Of a stretch of 23,550 nucleotides of DNA, positions 7,326-17,530 are shown in pieces. The first letter of the stretch is position 1; the number at the start of each line of letters is the position of its first letter. Below the pieces are notes generated by a model, which saw only the letters and a program-made list of their open reading frames with translations, had not been told where the DNA came from and searched no databases. The translations under genes and the position numbers were made by a program. The stretch comes from a virus: positions 1 to 23,550 of the IMG/VR virus record IMGVR_UViG_3300025620_000050. One strand, 5' to 3'.

Positions 7326-7559
7326 ATGACAGAAGAAGTAAAGACAGTAACACTTAATGATACACAATATAACGTAGATGATATGAGTGAGAGAGGGCAG
7401 TATATTGTAGCTCAGTTAGGCGAGATTCAGCAAGAGAGCCAGGAAATGAAGTTCAAGCTCGATAGACTAGAGATCGCTAGAAAGGGTTTTGTTGAGTTGT
7501 TGCAAGCAGAAGTAGAAGATCAACCTGCCGAAGCAGAGATTCAAGAAGTAGAAGGGTAA
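7326..7559 (+). CDS. Small coiled-coil protein, DUF6447-like
   Basis: This 77-residue acidic protein has a short N-terminal beta part (VTLNDTQYNVDDMSE), then one long amphipathic helix (about residues 25-62, with L/I heptads and the end LDRLEIARKGFVELL), and an acidic tail. The pattern T-x-N-x-x-x-Y-x-V-D-D-x-S-E followed by a helix ending in LxxARxxFVxxL resembles the small DUF6447 proteins found in many phages, whose function is unknown. It follows nrdB by 9 bases with AGGA before the ATG, and it is the last gene of the + operon before the terminator. It may simply ride in the operon, and no role in nucleotide metabolism can be read from the sequence. Confidence 0.8.
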   Translation: MTEEVKTVTLNDTQYNVDDMSERGQYIVAQLGEIQQESQEMKFKLDRLEIARKGFVELLQAEVEDQPAEAEIQEVEG

Positions 7560-7560
7560 A

Positions 7561-7590
7561 AGAAAGGGGGCTATTGCAGCCCCCTTTTTA
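7561..7590. terminator. Bidirectional intrinsic terminator between convergent operons
   Basis: A perfect 7-bp GC-rich stem GGGGGCT / AGCCCCC (7566-7572 and 7578-7584) with a five-base loop is followed by TTTTT on the + strand (7585-7589). It is preceded by AAAAGAAA, which becomes a U-rich tail when read from the - strand. It sits two bases after the stop of the last + gene and five bases before the stop of the tail fibre gene on the - strand, so it can end both transcripts and prevent read-through collisions. Confidence 0.93.
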
Positions 7591-7594
7591 TGTC

Positions 7595-10500
7595 TTACCA
7601 AGTCCCGATTGCGACTCTCTTCCATGTATTAGTTGCAGTACATATGTAAATATAGTTAGTATCCCATACAATTTGTCCTGCTGTTCCTGCAGCAGTAGCT
7701 GACGCAGGTGTCTCATTAGGAATAACAAGATCCCCATCAATAGTTGTAGTACAAGTACCAACCCCGCCACCAATATTGATATTAGTAGTAGAGCCAGAAG
7801 CGCCCGCATTACCAATATTAACAGTATTAGTTTTACCGCTCGCAGTAGCACCCGCACTAATTTTTATAGTTTGAGTATCAGTACTTCGACCAAATTCAAA
7901 CACTCCCGTACTAGAAGTCCCGCCTACCTTAACCGTACCTCCAACAGTACTGAAAGCAACATTACCGCTGGCGGTCAGCCCTGATTGAGAGACAATAGAA
8001 CTTGCAGTTCTGAGTCTGCCGGAAATATATACGTCTTTTTCAAACGTTGCGTTTTTATATACGCCTAAGTTTCCTGTAACTTGAGTAGATCCTGAGGATT
8101 CTATAACAGTACCTGGGTTATTTACAGTATACTGAACAACATTATCGTCTGTTAGGCCCACAATAATTGCGACGTTCGCAGCCTGATTAAGGTAGATACC
8201 TGTAGGGCTTAGCTCTTCATTTGCTGTATTAGCGAAACCTGCAAACGACATAGTTGTAATATCGAAAGCTGTAGCAAGAGCGAAACTAATAATATTTCCT
8301 CTATCTCTACAGGCAATGTGTGCTGTTTTACCGTCTACAGAGAACTCAATAGCCTGTACTAGAGTAATCTCATCCATCATCTCTAGGCTATCTTTAAAGG
8401 TATCGAATTGAACCTCAGCATCTGGCGCGACAGCAATAGTACCACTAGATACTCCGATGCCTGCAATATCATATGCACTGCTGAGATCATAGGAATAAAT
8501 AATATCCTTGCCATTGGCACCCGCCTTACTAGAGCCTACAAGTATAATTTTTGTCCCGTCTGCATTGAATCTAAACCCTGTAGGATTAGTGTCTACGTTG
8601 TCAGAGAAATCACGAGTAACTACAGCGGAACTCGAGAGAGTTGTTATGTCCCAATTTGTACCAACTGTATAATATCTTAGCTGATCAGAGCCTCCGTCAA
8701 GAGTCCAGAGTTTGCTGCCGTCTGCGCTAAATACGAGATCTTGAGGGTTGCCACCATGGGCGACATTGGCCTGCCCTACATGAGCAACTGTGCTGGAAAG
8801 ATCGTAGGCAGAAGATACACTATATTGCTGAACCCTGTCGCTTTGTGTACCTATAACATACAACTTTGTGCCGCTGTCTCCAAAGATAGCACCGCCAGGA
8901 TTAGTCTCCTGCCCCGCTGTACTAAACTCTTTACCTGTGTACTCCCAGTTTACAGCTGTTTTATTCGTGTCTTCTCTAATAATACTAGAGCCAGTCTTAA
9001 ATTGAGTAGCTTTTGCTGTGCCTACAACATCAAGAGCTTCTTGCGGACTTGAAGTGTTAATACCAACACGATTCTGGTCAGCATCTGTTTTTAGAAGATT
9101 AGTGCTGCCATCATCTTGAAAAACTATAAAGTCTCCGTTTGTGCTAAACTTAAATGTGGCTTTAGCATCCGCAGGAGTCTTATTCCTGTAGAAAGTCATT
9201 GCTCCAAAATCGGAACCGCTTCCGAAGGAGCTTATATAGCTATTACCGCCTTGGTGACTGATCTTAAACTGCTCATTGCCATCACTATCGTTCATAAGAA
9301 GTATAGGGTTGTCGTCGAGTACAGTAAGACTGGTAAACTTACCCGTACTAGGAGTAGCAGCTCCGATAGTTGCACCATCAACCGTACCACCGTTAATATC
9401 TGGCGAATTGATAGCAGGAGTATTTAGTGTTTTATTATTTAGTGATAGTGTATTGCTTGCTGTAGCCACGACTGCTGTATCAACGGCTACGGTTACCGCA
9501 CCACTAGTACCACCACCAATCAATCCATTACCAGTAATAACATTAGTAATGTCACCTTGGATGTTAGCGGTTTGATCAGCTACGTACGCTTTTACAGATT
9601 GTTGAGAAGGTGCACGAGTGGCACTATTAGTACTAAACCCATCTTCGTCTATAATATTATTTGCGATTCGAGCATCTGCACGAGTATTTGTGAAGTACAG
9701 ATTTGAACCTTCTGAAAGGTCTGTTGTAGTGGCTGCTGCTATACGAGCATCTGCACGAGCATTTGTAAAGTAAAGATTTGAACCTTCTGAAAGGTCTCCA
9801 GTGTCTGCGGCCTGTATACGAGCATCTGCACGAGCATTTGTAAAGTAAAGATTTGAACCTTCTGAAAGGTCTCCAGTGTCTGCGGCCTGTATACGAGCGT
9901 CTGCACGAGCATTTGTAAAGTACAGATTAGTACTACCTTCGGTAATTTCGTCTGTGTTATCTTTGCCTGCAACTTGTGAATCTACATATGCTTTAATCGA
10001 CTCAGAAGTAGAAAGAGTAGTAGCACTTGCACCAGACATATCGTCGGCATCAAGAATATCTGTAATTGCTACAGCACCAGTACCGGACAAGGAGTCAAAC
10101 TCAACTAGTCCAGTTACGTCGATACCGTTAGAGGTAGTCTCGAACTTTTTACCGTAGTTGTGGTATAGGTTAATCGCACCACCTGGTACAAACGTGGCAG
10201 AGAGTGCGAGATTATTCGAGGTACTTCCAAGCGTAATACTTGGGCCGTCCGTCTGAATAAATAAAGTGCCTGCGCCTGTGTCTCGAATATAGCTCTCATT
10301 AGATACATGGAAGATTTCCATATCTGTATCCTGCAAGCTTGTTGATGCTCCAAAACCAAGTATACTACCATCGTGCACTTTTAGAGTGTTTGCATTGCCC
10401 TGCCAGCGAATATTTCCGCCATTAGTACCTTGCATAGTAAAGAAGTCCGTAGCAACACCATTGCTAGCGTTCATCTTCTCAGAGTCCACTTCTGCAAGAG

Positions 10501-10666
10501 CAGCCTGTACATTTGTAGCGGCAATGCCTCCAGTAGGAGTAAAAGTTACACCTGTCGCAGTGGTAGAGGCAGCAGCAGAAAGGGTATCACCTACGAGGGT
10601 GATAGGAGTTTCTGTAATACTTACCCCATTAACAACTTCTGTAATTTCTAAAGTAATCTTTGACAT
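7595..10666 (-). CDS. Tail fibre protein with tandem repeats and a beta-propeller-like domain
   Basis: This protein of 1023 residues is read from 10666 down. The N-terminal part contains GIAATNVQAALAEVDSEK (about 48-65), a motif very common at the base of phage tail fibres. Residues about 240-335 hold four 25-residue repeats around NLYFTNARADARI. The middle includes a VGINTSSPQEALDVVGTAKA segment typical of phage fibres. Residues about 575-850 contain about five blade-like repeats with the forms DGTKLYV and AYDLSS/NWDITT/AYDIAG, which suggests a beta-propeller. The C-terminus ends in a GTAGQIVWDTNYIYICTATN stretch and WKRVAIGTW, a widespread marine phage fibre ending. It most likely binds the host surface. 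No S74 autoprotease was seen. Its ATG shares one base with the upstream stop (TAATG), with GGAGG ten bases upstream. Receptor specificity cannot be read. Confidence 0.9.
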   Translation of the reverse strand: MSKITLEITEVVNGVSITETPITLVGDTLSAAASTTATGVTFTPTGGIAATNVQAALAEVDSEKMNASNGVATDFFTMQGTNGGNIRWQGNANTLKVHDGSILGFGASTSLQDTDMEIFHVSNESYIRDTGAGTLFIQTDGPSITLGSTSNNLALSATFVPGGAINLYHNYGKKFETTSNGIDVTGLVEFDSLSGTGAVAITDILDADDMSGASATTLSTSESIKAYVDSQVAGKDNTDEITEGSTNLYFTNARADARIQAADTGDLSEGSNLYFTNARADARIQAADTGDLSEGSNLYFTNARADARIAAATTTDLSEGSNLYFTNTRADARIANNIIDEDGFSTNSATRAPSQQSVKAYVADQTANIQGDITNVITGNGLIGGGTSGAVTVAVDTAVVATASNTLSLNNKTLNTPAINSPDINGGTVDGATIGAATPSTGKFTSLTVLDDNPILLMNDSDGNEQFKISHQGGNSYISSFGSGSDFGAMTFYRNKTPADAKATFKFSTNGDFIVFQDDGSTNLLKTDADQNRVGINTSSPQEALDVVGTAKATQFKTGSSIIREDTNKTAVNWEYTGKEFSTAGQETNPGGAIFGDSGTKLYVIGTQSDRVQQYSVSSAYDLSSTVAHVGQANVAHGGNPQDLVFSADGSKLWTLDGGSDQLRYYTVGTNWDITTLSSSAVVTRDFSDNVDTNPTGFRFNADGTKIILVGSSKAGANGKDIIYSYDLSSAYDIAGIGVSSGTIAVAPDAEVQFDTFKDSLEMMDEITLVQAIEFSVDGKTAHIACRDRGNIISFALATAFDITTMSFAGFANTANEELSPTGIYLNQAANVAIIVGLTDDNVVQYTVNNPGTVIESSGSTQVTGNLGVYKNATFEKDVYISGRLRTASSIVSQSGLTASGNVAFSTVGGTVKVGGTSSTGVFEFGRSTDTQTIKISAGATASGKTNTVNIGNAGASGSTTNINIGGGVGTCTTTIDGDLVIPNETPASATAAGTAGQIVWDTNYIYICTATNTWKRVAIGTW
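9668..9945 (-). repeat. Four tandem 75-bp repeats inside the tail fibre gene
   Basis: The string AGC(A/G)TCTGCA recurs at 9671, 9746, 9821 and 9896, an exact 75-base period that keeps the reading frame (25 codons). Each unit encodes NLYFTNARADARI plus a linker such as QAADTGDLSEGS. The two units beginning at 9746 and 9821 are nearly identical at DNA level across the fibre repeat and linker, which points to recent duplication or gene conversion. The outer units are more diverged. Such units form repeated segments of the fibre shaft in many marine phages. Confidence 0.93.
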
Positions 10667-11001
10667 TAACGAGTGACCTCCTGCGTAACAGTAACAGTGC
10701 CTTCGAGAAGGCGAGTTACGATACCTGAATCTACAAGCTCCAAGTCATAGTAATAGCGTCCTGCTGCAATTGCAGAGGTTTCGCTGTTTGATAACTTAGC
10801 TGTGATTTTTCCTGTGACACTGCCGTCTTCTACGAGGCAAGTGAAAGTTTCCGTAAGTGTGGAAGAGTCTTTGGTTGGTCTAAGTTGCGCTCGCGCAGTA
10901 TCACCGGAAAGACTCTTAGCTGTTCCTGACTCCTTTACGATAAATTCCAGGGCAAAGTCGGTCCCTTGGTCGATGATTAGGTTATAGCGTGCTGCGCTCA
11001 T
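10666..11001 (-). CDS. Small Ig-like tail accessory protein (BppU N-terminal-like)
   Basis: This 111-residue, beta-rich protein begins with RYNLIIDQGTDFALEF, continues with a TARAQLRPTKDS turn, and ends in AAGRYYYDLELVDSG and a VTRLLEGTVTVTQEVTR strand pair. Proteins of this form occur next to tail fibre or baseplate genes in many phages and resemble the N-terminal beta-sandwich of the lactococcal phage upper baseplate protein BppU. A role in attaching the fibre to the tail tip is plausible but inferred. It is the first gene after the strong promoter at 11022-11050. GGAGG (11013-11009) lies seven bases before its ATG, and its stop overlaps the fibre start by one base. It and the fibre form a two-gene unit. 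Confidence 0.82.
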   Translation of the reverse strand: MSAARYNLIIDQGTDFALEFIVKESGTAKSLSGDTARAQLRPTKDSSTLTETFTCLVEDGSVTGKITAKLSNSETSAIAAGRYYYDLELVDSGIVTRLLEGTVTVTQEVTR

Positions 11002-11021
11002 ATGATTTCCTCCATTACAGA

Positions 11022-11050
11022 ATTATAACTAAGTTGACATTCTATGTCAA
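11022..11050 (-). promoter_or_regulatory. Perfect-consensus sigma70 promoter for the accessory protein and tail fibre
   Basis: On the - strand, TTGACA (11050-11045) and TATAAT (11027-11022) are separated by exactly 17 bases. All twelve box positions match the bacterial housekeeping consensus. The expected transcription start is near 11015, a few bases before the GGAGG of the 111-residue gene, giving a very short leader. It lies in the only real gap of the tail operon, just after the J-like gene, so it would give the receptor-binding genes expression independent of the upstream structural genes. Recognition by host RNA polymerase with the main sigma factor is inferred. Confidence 0.85.
11034..11050. 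promoter_or_regulatory. 17-bp palindrome overlapping the -35 box, operator candidate
   Basis: TTGACAT-TCT-ATGTCAA is a perfect inverted repeat with 7-bp arms and a 3-base centre. One arm contains the -35 box of the promoter at 11022-11050. A dimeric repressor or activator bound here would block or touch RNA polymerase directly. No regulator gene is visible in the window. I saw no second copy of the full palindrome in the other intergenic gaps. Confidence 0.55.
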
Positions 11051-11061
11051 GGTTTATTTTT

Positions 11062-11086
11062 GAGAACCCCTCTATGAGAGGTTCCC
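11062..11086 (-). other. Hairpin across the stop codon of the J-like tail gene
   Basis: In the - strand RNA, GAACCUCUC and GAGGGGUUC pair around an AUA loop, with a further G-U and G-C pair outside. The stem is about 11 bp with two wobble pairs. The TAG stop of the J-like gene (11074-11072) lies in and beside the loop. The sequence after it on the - strand is A-rich, not U-rich, so it is not a standard terminator. It might stabilise the 3' end of the mRNA or weakly stop transcription. Read on the + strand it is followed by TATTTTT, but the stem then has two mismatches. Confidence 0.35.
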
Positions 11087-14000
11087 TATTTTTACTCGCG
11101 GTGTGCTTTCCGTACCGCTATAGATTTCGATAACATCATTCACTATCTCAAGTCGAGAAGTGTTTGTAGAAGATGTACTCTTTAATGTGAAGTCTCCATG
11201 ATTTTTTATAGAGAGGTTCGTACCGTCAAACTTAATAAAATCATTATTATCTCCAAGAGCAAACTTAGCTTTGTGATCGACAACCTCGCCATTGCCCTCC
11301 CAGCCTAAAAAGAATCCATTAGTACCGCTGCTGAAAGTACTCTTTCCTGCGGAGTATATTTTACCTTTGTTGGAACTACTCTGGGTAGTACCAGAAGTAC
11401 CTAACACCATACTACTCTCTACCAACAATGTCTTCGTTCTCACATCATTCGCATTAACTGCATTGGCAGAAAGTGTTCCGTCAACGATCATACTTCCGTA
11501 GACTTTCTCCGCTACTAGAGTACTCCAAAAATTATGGTCTCTTGCGGTAGCACCTAGTGCAGCTGCTTCTGCCTCAGTTATGTGAGGTCCAATATATATG
11601 CGCTCACCTGCTATATACGTATCACCCATATAGGGATCGCCGGTGGCATCCTCTACCACTTCAATTCTGAAACGGTCTCCGTTACGAAGCCTTTTTACTC
11701 CATCAGCGTCAGGAGTAACGAGAGTGGAGGCTATTTTTATGGCGGAAGTCGAGGTGCTGTTTGCCATTTCTGTATGCCCAATATGTACGTTTACCCCTCC
11801 GCCACACCAATCTCGTGTACGTCCGAATGTAAGTGCAGCCGGGACAGTCCCTGGGGTGGTTATCGTAGAGTGTTGGTACTCAGTAAATGTATCGCCCCCT
11901 GAAGTAGTCTCAGTAGGAGTTCCTGTAATAGAAAGCGTAAGATTACCAATATCGCGAAGCCCGGGGATTTTTTCAATTGAATAACGTACCGCACCAATTG
12001 TAACATTTTGATCGTCTTCAATAGCTACATCAAACTCTATAATATTTTGGTCAGTATTAGCATTATAGAAAGTGCCAGTTAGCGTCAAAGAGGCAGACCC
12101 CAGTTGTACCGCAAATCTAGAGCCGCCGGTTATTTCGGTAACGGTTCCCCAGTGCCAAGTACCACTAGCAGGAGAGTTACCTCCATCGTATGGCATATTA
12201 CTGCCGTTCTTTACTATCTTAACAACAGAAGCAAACTGCTCTGCCGCAGGTACAGCACCCGTAGAAAGTGCACGTAGTTTCTGCCCCATGTTAGTAGCAG
12301 TTACAGTAAATGTATTGCCTGGTATGCCCTGATTACCATCACTTGTAATTCTGTTACCTGTAAATGTAACCTCGGCCGTAGCAAAATACTCTGACCCTAG
12401 ATACGTATCTCTGAAGGTTACTCTAACTGTCCCTGGTGTCGCGGTAAAGGCATTTGGAGGAGTAAACACCAAGTCTGCATCAGTACTGAAATCCTGTAAC
12501 AAAGTCGTTGAACCTACACCAGTTACTTGTTCGAATTTATAGGCAGCAGTGCCTAATCCGTTAATGCCTTGTGCAGTAATAGTCGCAGTTGCATTGTAGT
12601 TAGAGTCTATACCAGTACCGTCTGTTTCATAAGTGAAACTAGTACCAGGCTCGACTCTTAAATCTACGCCTCTTAATACGTTTGCAGCCAGGTTTGTGCC
12701 TTCTATACCCGCTACCGTTGCAGGTTCGAACACAGAAAACTGTCGTCTGGATACAGCACCTGCGATATTCTGTACAGGCGCATCAACAGCATAACGTATC
12801 CAATAGTATCTTGTAGTATTACTCTGTGAGACCTCTGTTACAGGGTCGGTAAAAGTACTAGTATCAAGTCTGCCTGCTAGTAAAGTAGCTCTAAAAGTAA
12901 TAGTTTGGTCGTTTGTCCAAGTAAAGGGGCTACTAAGAGTTATGACATTACCATTAACTGCGGTGACTTCGATAGTTTGATTGATTTCTCGCATCTGCCC
13001 AGTACCTGAAAAAGTTCCGGTGCTGCTTGGTACTACTAAGTCCCCTACACCAAAGTTAGTCTCAGAGCCTGCATCCAAGGCGGCCCAGTTGGTGTCTCCT
13101 ACAACCGAGATTTCATATACCGCAATAGGGTAGGAGTCTCCACTAGCTATAGTTTTAATACTAGTGCCGTTAGCCAGAGTGGTTCCTACTGCAACATCTG
13201 AAGCGTTATCAACAGTTAGGGAGGTAGACTCTGTTCCTGCACCATTTGCTACAACATCAACTGTTCGTTTATTTTTTGTGCTACTAAATACTTGGACATC
13301 ATGAGTTGCTGGATTGTATCCTGCTCCATGTCTCCAAAGTAGTTTAATACCTCCAATACCTGCTTGCGAGCCTGTTGTTGCAGTTAGACTGTTAGGCGGC
13401 TGCATTTGGTCTAGGACTACTGTGCCTGGTCCTGACTGTTTGTTGGCTACTCCATCTGAGTCTTTTGTTGCATTAACAATATAAGCACCATCAGAGTGTT
13501 CCTCTGCTGTTACGGCTACCTGGCCGTTCTCTAAAAAGTTAAGGTTAGTTATTCTCCACAGCTTATCGTCCCATCCAAATCTCTCGTAGGTTAATGCAAT
13601 AATCTCACCTGCTAGCAGTAATATCCCTGAAGGTCTAGTATTGAATTGAATCTCAAGGCCGTTTCTAGACTCATCAAGAAACTGTTTTATATTGAATCTG
13701 GCGTTAAAGTAATTACTTATGCTAGGAGTGGCAAAGCTGCCTTTCTTAGGCACTCCGTTATCTTCTCTCAAGTAGGTTGAGTTAAAAAAGCTTACGGATC
13801 GTGTTTCGAACCCGTTCTGAGGATCTACTATACTTGCACTAACGCTGTTATAGGTCTTCTTGCTGCCCTTATCTGTCAGCTTTATCTGGCCTACAATATC
13901 TTCTTCTTTGACTTTTTCATATGCTGATAGCGAAGGAGACTTGCTCTTAACACTTAACTGATAAGAGCCGTTGGCGTATCGAAGGATACCGTTAAACTGC

Positions 14001-17000
14001 CTCAACATACCGTTGATATTTTCAAATACAGTATTCGTGGTCTGAATAGTTTGGTTTAACTGGTGTCTGGTTACATTTCTTTGAGCCCTGCTATCCCAGC
14101 CTAGGTATTTCCAATATTTTACATTGTCCGAGTCATATAAGGTATACCCGGAGGCCGTTAAAGATCCTCCACCATCTCTGCTTTTTACAAGAGGGTTGCC
14201 GTCTCCTGCAGTTATGTCTGGATCTCCATCTACTAGTAGTGCACTCACTCCAGACCCTGAGACTATGTTTAGCTGTAGGCCTGTTATGTCACTGCTGGTT
14301 CCTCCAACAAAGTCGGGTAGTGTTCCTCCAGTGCCACTTTTTCTACGTAAACGTGTTACTCCGGAGCTGTCTATCTTCCATACCGCCTGCCCCTCCGCAT
14401 AGTAGTTATAGCTGTCCCACTTTTGTGCAATTTTACCTATAACATCTGTGAAGGTCACTTCTCTATAATCAGCAGTTTTACCTTCTATATTAAAAGAAGC
14501 ACTAACACTCTTAACAGTGCCTTGGAAATGTAAACTACCTCCGAAGCTTCTCTGATATACACTCCCTATACCAGGGATAGCACCAGATATAACTACTATA
14601 ACATCAGAGCGAGTATCACATTGCTGTGCTGCCGCTTTGAATGTAGCCAAATCAATATCCGACTCTTTTAGTCCTTTACCATATCTTTTACTTTGCATAT
14701 AATCTAACAGTTGCATTGCAGGGTTGATACTAACTCTTGCATCTTTTTTAGTTGTAATGCTATATAAATCTGATGCTTTAGGCTCATACCCAGGATCCCA
14801 GGCCTCTCCTACAAAGGCTACAACATCATTAGATGATGTAAGCCACGAAATTATCTCTCTTTCTTGTACATAAGGAACATTTGTAGTAGAGTCAAATCTA
14901 TAAAGAGTTACAGTGGCTCCAACATACTCAAGAGAGTTCGAAGCAGTACTAGCTAAGTTAGGTGTGCCGCCTGAGGGAAATTGTATAGCATTACGTAGAA
15001 GTATTTCATCTACGTCTATCTCGGATATATCTGGTGTAACATCAGAAGGTAGGTTAACTACATCAGAAAGTTGGTTCGATGAGCTGTCGTAATCACCAAA
15101 ACCAAAGGAAGAAGTAGATAAAATACCTCTTGGATTATTACCTTTTCTTAGTCCGAACATAGCCTTTCTTTTAGGCGCAGGGTCATTTACTCCCGGACTA
15201 AGCTCATAAACATCAGGAGCATTCACTGCTAGTTCGAATGCGGAACTTACGTTACTATCAACCACGAATTTGCCCGCAGCTTGAGTAGTTGCAAGATCTG
15301 CGGAAAGTTTAGAGGTAATTGACCCTGTTTTAATTATAGCACTGCCGACGTGCATATGCCACTCGGTACCGCCTTCGCCACTTTGAGTAGACATACGAAG
15401 CTTATAGCCTGTAGGCGTAGGTGAGGTAGCCCATCTAAAACGATGTTGGGTCTCCCCGTCTCCATCAAGGAAAGACCACTTATCTATAATTGTTGTTGTT
15501 ATTTCAGAAAAGCCCTCCCCTGTTAGGTAGACGGTATCCCCTGCATTAAAGTTATTAGGATTCTCGTTGGAAAAAGCGGCACGATGAGAGTAACTACCAT
15601 CATAGTTATAACAGTCTACGTCCCTGCCCCTTACGACGAAGTCCAACGAAGGAAGCTGAAATTCTCCCGCTGCGATTTGATACTCTCCTACACAATATGC
15701 AGTATCTAGAACCCTATGGTTAGGGGTCCAATAAGACGAAGGGTTTCCTTCAAAATAGTCATTCTGAATCTTAAATAATCCACCATCTGCTTTTTCGACG
15801 AGCATATGATTAGCTCTTTGGCTAGAAGTACCTTTATGAAATACTAAAGTACAGTTAATAGGAGTTGTGAATCTATAAGCCTCTTCGTGTTGTATGCCTT
15901 TAAAACCTACCCCTCCCGCATCCATAGTTCGCGTTTCTTGTGTATAGTAATGGCTGCCATAAATGGGCTCGTCCTGAGCACCGTCATTGGCTAGCTTAGC
16001 TTGAAACATATTGCTAAGCCTGCCGGACAGGGAGGGCCTATTAGTAAAAGTAGTGTGCGTATATATACCTACACCCTGCGAAGCAGGTGTGCCAACCAAG
16101 CTATTTCCTGCATCTTGTCTTCCTTTACAAACTACCTCAACATTTTCCTCTTCAGACTGAGAAGAGCGGGCAGCAGAATCCTTTTCGTCCACACAAATAG
16201 TCGACTTGTCGTCAATAATAATATCCAGCACGCCTCCGATGCTTCCCTCACATAAGGCGTATCCTGCGTACACTCTTGTGGTGTTATTCTTTAAGTTATC
16301 AAAAAAGAAAGGGATACTATCAATTTTCTGGACGCCATAAACCACAGGAAGAGCCTGGGCCTTAAGATTTAGTTTCAGATCCACATCTGTTGGTACATCT
16401 ACCTCATACTCTTCTTGTATTGCCTTTTTACTCAGTCCCAGATTCTTCTTTTTATATCTCAGGCGAGTTCTAGTTTCTTTTTTATTATAAGTAGCTATAA
16501 GATTAAGTGCAAGCTCTGAGTGTGCGAAACCCATATCTCCCGCATACTCTTGTCGAAGTAGCATATTTTTATCTGGACGACCTGTAACGTCTAAAGCTCT
16601 GTGCTCAGCGTCTTGGGTTATTCTATTTTGTACTCTTACAAAGTCTCCCCAATGGCTGGAAAGGCTCCATGTCATTACAGTACCCTTTTTCGGGTCTTCG
16701 GTCAGGGCAGCATTAGAAATTATGCCTTTAAATAAAAGCATAGCACCGCCAGAAGTATAAGTAGATCCTGGACCTGTAAAGCCGGGTCTTCCTCCTATAA
16801 TTGCATTCGTATTAGGGTCCATATGTACACGATATATAGTGACTTCTCTATTGATATAATTTGTGTAAGATACATTGCCATTACCTAAAATCAAAGTATT
16901 AAGTTCTTCAGAGATCTGTGAGATAGTATATAGACTAGAGGTGTTTTGAGTATTCCAGGTACCTCCTGCGGTGGTTGCCTTGAGTGTGGTACCTCCACTT

Positions 17001-17530
17001 GTAAATCTATTAACTATAACAGATAAACCTGTGTTAGTTCCCCCTCCGCCAAATAGGAGCTTATCTCCTTCCACAAACCCTTGCTCTGACAGATCAATAT
17101 CTGTAACAATAGTATTCTGATCAGCATTAAAAGTACAGCTAGCACTTATAGTAGTACCCAAAGAAGTAGCGTCTAGGTTCAGTGAGAGCGTGGAGGCTTT
17201 TGCCTCGATCCCTTCGTTAATAGTACCTACCTTTAGTACTTTATTGGCATGGTAGATTTGCTCTCCGTTTGCGAGAGGCGCAGATAGGCTTGAGTCAAGA
17301 GCGTAAGCATCTTGTTGATATTGCTCTCTTCGACTAAAGGTTCCATCATCAAAGGAGATATCTACTGCAGCGTCTGTCAAATAGCTGTAATCTAGCACGG
17401 TCTCTGCGCTTATGCCGCTGTAGTTAGTCGATATACTAGGCTTCTCAAACTTTATTAGGTGTGCTACTATATAGGGTTCGTTGTTGTACAATGAGTCGCG
17501 TAGCTCATTATTTAAAGGGCGATATGACAT
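11072..17530 (-). CDS. Giant tail tip / central fibre protein, lambda gpJ-like
   Basis: This 2152-residue protein is nearly twice the size of lambda J (1132). The N-terminal 330 residues form a beta-rich region (YIVAHLIKFEKP start, later GTVMTWSLSSHW) that resembles tail hub domains of the DUF2163 kind. A J-type motif NPAMQLLDYMQSKRYGKGL lies at 936-954. A region around KVKEEDIVGQIKL to LAGEIIALTYERFGWDDKLW is typical of the central hub. Near 1393-1590 is a fibronectin-III-like domain (LLWRHGAGYNP to RYYWIRYAVD) split by inserts. The C-terminus has LFLGWEGNG-like fibre strands and ends SRLEIVNDVIEIY...PRVKIGNLS, a common J-family tail end. It would form the tail tip that contacts the receptor and opens the path for DNA. 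Its ATG shares one base with the upstream TAA, with GGAGG 10 bases upstream. Domain borders are approximate. Confidence 0.88.
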   Translation of the reverse strand: MSYRPLNNELRDSLYNNEPYIVAHLIKFEKPSISTNYSGISAETVLDYSYLTDAAVDISFDDGTFSRREQYQQDAYALDSSLSAPLANGEQIYHANKVLKVGTINEGIEAKASTLSLNLDATSLGTTISASCTFNADQNTIVTDIDLSEQGFVEGDKLLFGGGGTNTGLSVIVNRFTSGGTTLKATTAGGTWNTQNTSSLYTISQISEELNTLILGNGNVSYTNYINREVTIYRVHMDPNTNAIIGGRPGFTGPGSTYTSGGAMLLFKGIISNAALTEDPKKGTVMTWSLSSHWGDFVRVQNRITQDAEHRALDVTGRPDKNMLLRQEYAGDMGFAHSELALNLIATYNKKETRTRLRYKKKNLGLSKKAIQEEYEVDVPTDVDLKLNLKAQALPVVYGVQKIDSIPFFFDNLKNNTTRVYAGYALCEGSIGGVLDIIIDDKSTICVDEKDSAARSSQSEEENVEVVCKGRQDAGNSLVGTPASQGVGIYTHTTFTNRPSLSGRLSNMFQAKLANDGAQDEPIYGSHYYTQETRTMDAGGVGFKGIQHEEAYRFTTPINCTLVFHKGTSSQRANHMLVEKADGGLFKIQNDYFEGNPSSYWTPNHRVLDTAYCVGEYQIAAGEFQLPSLDFVVRGRDVDCYNYDGSYSHRAAFSNENPNNFNAGDTVYLTGEGFSEITTTIIDKWSFLDGDGETQHRFRWATSPTPTGYKLRMSTQSGEGGTEWHMHVGSAIIKTGSITSKLSADLATTQAAGKFVVDSNVSSAFELAVNAPDVYELSPGVNDPAPKRKAMFGLRKGNNPRGILSTSSFGFGDYDSSSNQLSDVVNLPSDVTPDISEIDVDEILLRNAIQFPSGGTPNLASTASNSLEYVGATVTLYRFDSTTNVPYVQEREIISWLTSSNDVVAFVGEAWDPGYEPKASDLYSITTKKDARVSINPAMQLLDYMQSKRYGKGLKESDIDLATFKAAAQQCDTRSDVIVVISGAIPGIGSVYQRSFGGSLHFQGTVKSVSASFNIEGKTADYREVTFTDVIGKIAQKWDSYNYYAEGQAVWKIDSSGVTRLRRKSGTGGTLPDFVGGTSSDITGLQLNIVSGSGVSALLVDGDPDITAGDGNPLVKSRDGGGSLTASGYTLYDSDNVKYWKYLGWDSRAQRNVTRHQLNQTIQTTNTVFENINGMLRQFNGILRYANGSYQLSVKSKSPSLSAYEKVKEEDIVGQIKLTDKGSKKTYNSVSASIVDPQNGFETRSVSFFNSTYLREDNGVPKKGSFATPSISNYFNARFNIKQFLDESRNGLEIQFNTRPSGILLLAGEIIALTYERFGWDDKLWRITNLNFLENGQVAVTAEEHSDGAYIVNATKDSDGVANKQSGPGTVVLDQMQPPNSLTATTGSQAGIGGIKLLWRHGAGYNPATHDVQVFSSTKNKRTVDVVANGAGTESTSLTVDNASDVAVGTTLANGTSIKTIASGDSYPIAVYEISVVGDTNWAALDAGSETNFGVGDLVVPSSTGTFSGTGQMREINQTIEVTAVNGNVITLSSPFTWTNDQTITFRATLLAGRLDTSTFTDPVTEVSQSNTTRYYWIRYAVDAPVQNIAGAVSRRQFSVFEPATVAGIEGTNLAANVLRGVDLRVEPGTSFTYETDGTGIDSNYNATATITAQGINGLGTAAYKFEQVTGVGSTTLLQDFSTDADLVFTPPNAFTATPGTVRVTFRDTYLGSEYFATAEVTFTGNRITSDGNQGIPGNTFTVTATNMGQKLRALSTGAVPAAEQFASVVKIVKNGSNMPYDGGNSPASGTWHWGTVTEITGGSRFAVQLGSASLTLTGTFYNANTDQNIIEFDVAIEDDQNVTIGAVRYSIEKIPGLRDIGNLTLSITGTPTETTSGGDTFTEYQHSTITTPGTVPAALTFGRTRDWCGGGVNVHIGHTEMANSTSTSAIKIASTLVTPDADGVKRLRNGDRFRIEVVEDATGDPYMGDTYIAGERIYIGPHITEAEAAALGATARDHNFWSTLVAEKVYGSMIVDGTLSANAVNANDVRTKTLLVESSMVLGTSGTTQSSSNKGKIYSAGKSTFSSGTNGFFLGWEGNGEVVDHKAKFALGDNNDFIKFDGTNLSIKNHGDFTLKSTSSTNTSRLEIVNDVIEIYSGTESTPRVKIGNLS

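Follow-up and report, generated by a model that had tools for sequence, protein, structure and literature searches.

A consensus sigma-70 promoter at an exchange seam between the J-like and fibre genes of a T5-like phage

Organization of the tail region

The window (the whole stretch of DNA that was analysed, 23,550 bases) is an IMG/VR virus record. Its minus strand encodes two tail assembly chaperones, a tape measure protein (TMP), a distal tail protein (Dit), a J-like protein, a 111-aa protein and a putative fibre, while SbcD, SbcC, RusA, an exonuclease, NrdA, thioredoxin and NrdB are encoded convergently on the plus strand. The same order of genes is seen in T5, Vibrio phage JSF10 and Proteus phage RP7. 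As in T5-like (Demerecviridae-type) phages, TMP, Dit, J, fibre accessory and fibre genes follow one another and converge with genes for an exonuclease, a RusA-type resolvase, SbcC and SbcD; NrdA, thioredoxin and NrdB occupy the place of dut in T5. Residues ~201-1435 of the J-like protein align to T5-family J/pb3 proteins (28-32%). The 111-aa protein matches two PHROGs (E-values: 3.6e-26 and 1.3e-14), and the putative fibre gene has the same position as T5 ltf and the JSF10 tail fibre gene. A tblastn search of the Dit protein against known phages gave no match. From these comparisons of sequence and gene order, the phage, a marine T5 relative, can be classified as having a T5-type tail and gene order. 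One relative, G001 (40 kb), has nearly the same sequence as the window and also carries head genes.

At the convergent junction between the ribonucleotide reductase operon and the fibre gene is a strong, symmetric hairpin, AAAGGGGGCTGCAATAGCCCCCTTT (7559-7595; ~-22 kcal/mol on either strand). It is probably a bidirectional terminator and is in the same place as the bidirectional terminator adjoining ltf in T5.

The features around the promoter are as follows, in the direction of transcription.
11072..17530, minus strand: 2152-aa J-like central tail protein (phrog_31, central tail fibre J), the last gene before the promoter
11062..11086, minus strand: 11-bp hairpin spanning the J-like stop codon (-16.6 kcal/mol, z -5.5), with no U-tract
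11062..11066, no strand: mosaic boundary next to the upstream end of the A-tract; similarity to near relatives stops here, ~63 bases ahead of the ATG
11053..11061, minus strand: A-tract AAAAATAAA, directly upstream of the -35 box and placed like an UP-element proximal subsite
11050-11022, minus strand: promoter core TTGACATAGAATGTCAACTTAGTTATAAT, with -35 box TTGACA (11050-11045), 17-base spacer and -10 box TATAAT (11027-11022), 12/12 consensus bases
11034..11050, minus strand: 7-bp perfect dyad TTGACAT-AGA-ATGTCAA covering the -35 box, a candidate operator
11015, minus strand: predicted transcription start, A, seven bases after the -10 box, giving a 14-base 5' UTR
11009..11013, minus strand: Shine-Dalgarno sequence GGAGG, +3 to +7 of the predicted transcript
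10666..11001, minus strand: 111-aa fibre accessory protein, the first gene past the promoter (phrog_1084 and, more weakly, phrog_3304, L-shaped tail fibre assembly)
7595..10666, minus strand: 1023-aa putative tail fibre, overlapping the 111-aa gene by one base (weak structural/tail PHROGs)

The promoter lies in the 70 bases that separate the J-like gene (17530-11072) from the 111-aa gene (11001-10666). At the remaining tail junctions (10666, 17530, 18462 and 22703), the genes overlap by one base, in agreement with the coupling of tail genes noted in a preliminary description of this DNA; the exception is the pair of tail-assembly-chaperone frames, which overlap by 56 bases. That description had also reported a perfect TTGACA-17-TATAAT promoter at 11022-11050 and predicted a start near 11015 on the minus strand. 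The promoter is confirmed: a search of the whole window for exact TTGACA/TATAAT pairs with spacers of 15-19 bases gave this single match, at 11050-11022 (minus strand). An A lies at the predicted start, so that the locus has the hexamers, the spacer near 17 bases and the purine start about seven bases downstream of a sigma-70 consensus promoter.

Such a match could in principle arise by chance and have no function. Looser sigma-70-like sites are as frequent in the window as expected from shuffles (31 vs. 30.9), such that a consensus scan alone is weak and it is the exactness and place of the promoter that carry weight. From the hexamer counts of the window itself, the expectation for exact spacer-17 pairs, both strands taken together, is just 0.006 (0.0055 for the exact pair under a first-order Markov model), and the pair found is correctly oriented and lies in the one gap of the tail genes. 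As described below, the hexamers are also kept in homologous loci with diverged spacers. The chance explanation is refuted by this conservation, and its probability is negligible.

Conservation of the promoter and its associated signals

A first protein search with the 111-aa protein recovered the promoter in most close relatives, while three more distant relatives from this search (L020, L024 and L027) lack it. A further protein search, run with an alignment of the family, gave a sample of 80 loci that involved no DNA-based selection. The promoter is present in 80/80 of these homologous loci, as TTGACA-17-TATAAT in 71 and as TTGACT-17-TATAAT in nine. The distance from the end of the -10 box to the ATG is 19-21 nt in 79 loci and 49 nt in the remaining one. 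After removal of loci with 111-aa genes at least 80% identical, 39 lineages were left. Their mean pairwise identity is 0.975 in the hexamers, 0.754 in the A-tract and 0.563 in the spacer. It is 0.407 in the bases immediately preceding the A-tract, and 0.487 when only the third codon positions of the 111-aa gene are compared. Because the hexamers are so much more similar than the spacer and the third positions, shared ancestry is not sufficient to explain their identity, and these alignments indicate strong purifying selection on the promoter across the 39 diverged lineages. This supports the independent start for the 111-aa protein and fibre proposed in the preliminary description.

The signals surrounding the core are also conserved. 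Four adjacent columns of the A-tract are A in all 39 lineages; from its position, the A-tract would act as an UP element. The predicted +1 base is A in 38 of the 39, and the GGAG block is conserved across the 80-locus set. As the Shine-Dalgarno sequence starts about two bases past this conserved +1, the leader is predicted to be just 13-15 bases long. A conserved mini-ORF starting from a 5'-terminal AUG was considered and dropped: such an AUG is frequent, its third base being G in 33/39 lineages, but the frame is not kept because the leader varies between 13 and 15 bases. The 11-bp hairpin at the J-like stop codon is a possible transcript-end element. It occurs in the near-clone lineage of the window and is missing upstream of the promoter in other relatives; with no U-tract and no conservation in most relatives, its role as a terminator splitting two transcription units is not supported.

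The dyad over the -35 box raises the possibility that a repressor or activator controls the promoter, such that the fibre genes are timed differently from other tail genes. The dyad is perfect over 7 bp, and its GAC..GTC core is found in 19 of the 39 lineages while adjacent spacer bases vary. Two copies, ahead of two fibre modules, are present in L083 and L160, and no other promoter among the perfect ones listed from related contigs has GACATnnnATGTC. However, about half of the lineages in the protein-based sample lack the dyad (e.g. TAACACCCCAAGTTAGC as spacer), and the dyad as a universal operator was rejected on this basis. The IMG/VR pattern scan that first suggested an operator was selected for the dyad and so was run with a scrambled-arm control; it gave at least 119 dyad sites, many of them from the same promoter family, but the control still gave 79. 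Covariation can say little about the dyad, because its GAC is fixed by the -35 box. Control of the promoter through the dyad is considered unlikely; in one branch, the dyad could serve as an operator.

The dyad-pattern promoters include two further groups. In L063, L066, L104, L112, L114, L121, L134 and similar loci, which belong to other viruses, TATAAT is just 6-7 bases ahead of the start ATG of a long gene (~430-630 aa), for which leaderless mRNAs are predicted. In L106, L124, L130, L133, L152 and L172, which are related contigs, the pattern precedes a lipoprotein-like gene (MKKMILALAILSLVACGES...).

More distant homologues of the gene, from marine and mostly T4-like phages, have a different upstream signal. 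ATAAATA is found within 80 nt upstream in 28/32 of them, compared to 3% of background stretches, and none has an upstream sigma-70 promoter within one mismatch. In T4, a phage late sigma factor recognizes ATAAATA-type motifs. This gene family thus has a promoter of its own under two different transcription systems.

The relatives also bear on the identity of the host. An 11/12 version of the promoter is found in a relative from assembly AG-333-E20, labelled uncultured gamma proteobacterium; a literature search for this assembly name found nothing. Host labels conflict for two loci of near-identical sequence, L382 (uncultured gamma proteobacterium) and L381 (a MAG labelled Bacteroidetes). Because Bacteroidetes promoters differ from TTGACA/TATAAT, a gammaproteobacterial host is favoured.

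Relationship to sigma-70 promoters of T5-type phages

In T5, transcription of every gene class depends on the host RNA polymerase with sigma-70, and both early and late genes are preceded by strong sigma-70 promoters (PMC7472727). The preliminary description regarded such promoters as rare in phage structural regions and the present one as surprising, given that late promoters usually need phage factors. Neither statement applies to the T5-type lineage, which uses sigma-70 for late genes (PMC7472727): T5 itself has the internal promoter P-G25, and relatives of the window carry several promoters of this kind. Three related contigs have 7, 11 and 3 perfect promoters, where approximately 0.02, 0.02 and 0.01 are expected (the contigs with 7 and 11 are 94 and 98 kb, respectively). 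These are mostly intergenic, and several start head, tail or fibre modules. A late phage factor may nevertheless act on the sigma-70 promoter; the timing of the T5 late promoters, and with it the late switch, is described as unexplained (PMC7472727).

P-G25 is an annotated promoter inside the T5 tail operon, between the tape measure and Dit genes, and follows a terminator hairpin with a T-run. Like the window promoter, it has an A-rich stretch, a C just before the -35 box (TTTC before TTGATA), a 17-base spacer, TATAAT and a short Shine-Dalgarno leader, and it starts distal tail/fibre genes. Equivalent TMP-Dit promoters (TTGAAA-17-TATAAT) are found in Proteus phage RP7 and Klebsiella phage vB_Kpn9-P3. 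The window promoter differs from this type in having a perfect -35 box rather than TTGATA or TTGAAA, and in lying two genes past the TMP/Dit junction, between the J-like and fibre accessory genes. It thus shares with the P-G25 type its place in the tail operon, the A-tract and the short Shine-Dalgarno leader, but neither the TMP-Dit location nor the preceding intrinsic terminator, as the hairpin before it has no U-tract. Because the Dit and TMP genes of the window overlap by one base, leaving that junction without room for a promoter, and the promoter is instead found at the J-like/fibre module, it is best described as P-G25-like in a new place. It is ordinary in kind for T5-like phages and unusual in its place and in its location at an exchange seam.

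Another promoter of the same late set, T5 P-J5 (TTGACA-17-TATACT), is located upstream of the major tail protein gene, as is its counterpart in G001; this position is outside the window. In L290:7592-10707 (G001 27592-30707), two paralogous major tail proteins of 379 and 626 aa adjoin one another, with TTGACA-17-TATACT between them as in P-J5. L298 and L299 (G020, ~54000-60900) have repeated perfect spacer-18 promoters (TTGACAAGTATGGGATGGGGATGGTATAAT) among small ORFs, most of which lie on the other strand.

Gene exchange upstream of the promoter

Similarity between the window and its relatives ends abruptly next to the promoter: blastn matches stop at -63 relative to the ATG in most comparisons. 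Among 62 pairs of loci with at least 85% gene identity, 23 remain co-linear as far as -390 and the other 39 show a break. In 31 of those 39, it lies 60-74 bases upstream of the ATG, where the upstream end of the A-tract is; as the pairs are non-independent, this clustering is given as a description and carries no P value. Where relatives share 111-aa proteins of 99-100% identity, their J-like proteins are 34-46% identical or below detection, and their fibres reach ~62% identity or less, over parts. The J-like gene itself stops directly ahead of the A-tract in many relatives. Downstream, the next ATG overlaps the stop codon of the 111-aa gene by one base in 69/80 relatives. These alignments indicate that the J-like gene is swapped at the seam, as are small cargo genes, with the promoter and 111-aa gene nearly invariant. 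The genes swapped around the promoter are probably host-recognition genes.

Other relatives have one to four extra genes at the seam, including those for a 2OG-Fe(II) oxygenase and a glycosyltransferase, and the interval separating the J-like gene from the promoter resembles a hotspot for the insertion of tail-associated genes. The cargo in L301-L380 comprises genes for 61-67-aa proteins (several ending in WLDPL), 181-185-aa proteins (one tested, a 2OG-Fe(II) oxygenase), 382-383-aa proteins (one tested, a glycosyltransferase) and a 336-aa protein, as well as other genes.

Two explanations for the position of this boundary can be considered. The first is that the promoter, ribosome binding site and 111-aa gene form a portable joint. 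It would offer recombination a homology block shared between the variable genes that flank it, which are probably involved in host recognition, and would let an incoming fibre or cargo module be expressed independently of its neighbour; its use at the seam and its duplication ahead of second fibre modules would be selected for fibre turnover. L083 and L160 each have a near-identical copy of the promoter cassette at the head of a second fibre module, 5-7 kb downstream. A second cassette in L108, upstream of a second fibre gene, retains the first codons of the 111-aa gene, which indicates that the block was copied as a unit between modules. The portable joint is proposed here tentatively. The second explanation is that the boundary lies only where recombination is tolerated, the promoter having no role in exchange and being conserved for expression. 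This opposes only the exchange-joint reading and leaves the promoter itself unaffected. Phage mosaic joints are generally at gene borders, and breaks are also seen within the fibre gene itself (L302 vs. L303), both of which fit tolerated recombination; the cassettes duplicated as units before second fibre modules, and the 111-aa codons in that of L108, argue against it. It has about an even chance of being correct. A literature search for phage promoters as mosaic boundary sequences found nothing on this phage group.

Whichever applies at the seam, independent transcription of the fibre is well supported by the comparative sequence data. The site is very probably a functional, strong host sigma-70 promoter from which a short-leader mRNA encoding the 111-aa protein and fibre is started separately, alongside read-through. 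The model proposed for its function is the following. Host RNA polymerase would load at the promoter, aided by the A-tract, and would presumably do so late in infection. The resulting mRNA would add to read-through from the tail operon, raising the fibre dose and potentially giving more fibre per tail. Expression of the fibre would also be freed from the J-like and cargo genes that are exchanged just upstream.

For T5-type phages, it is normal to find consensus sigma-70 promoters in structural regions; what is new here is that similarity breaks at the upstream edge of the promoter and that its position differs from that of the T5 internal promoter. Uncultured, mostly marine T5-like phages thus appear to separate fibre expression from that of the rest of the tail, using a near-invariant promoter whose neighbours are swapped. 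The promoter provides an easy sequence tag for fibre-module seams in metagenomes. If it is a built-in exchange joint, it would give these phages a simple route for trading fibre genes without upsetting their expression.
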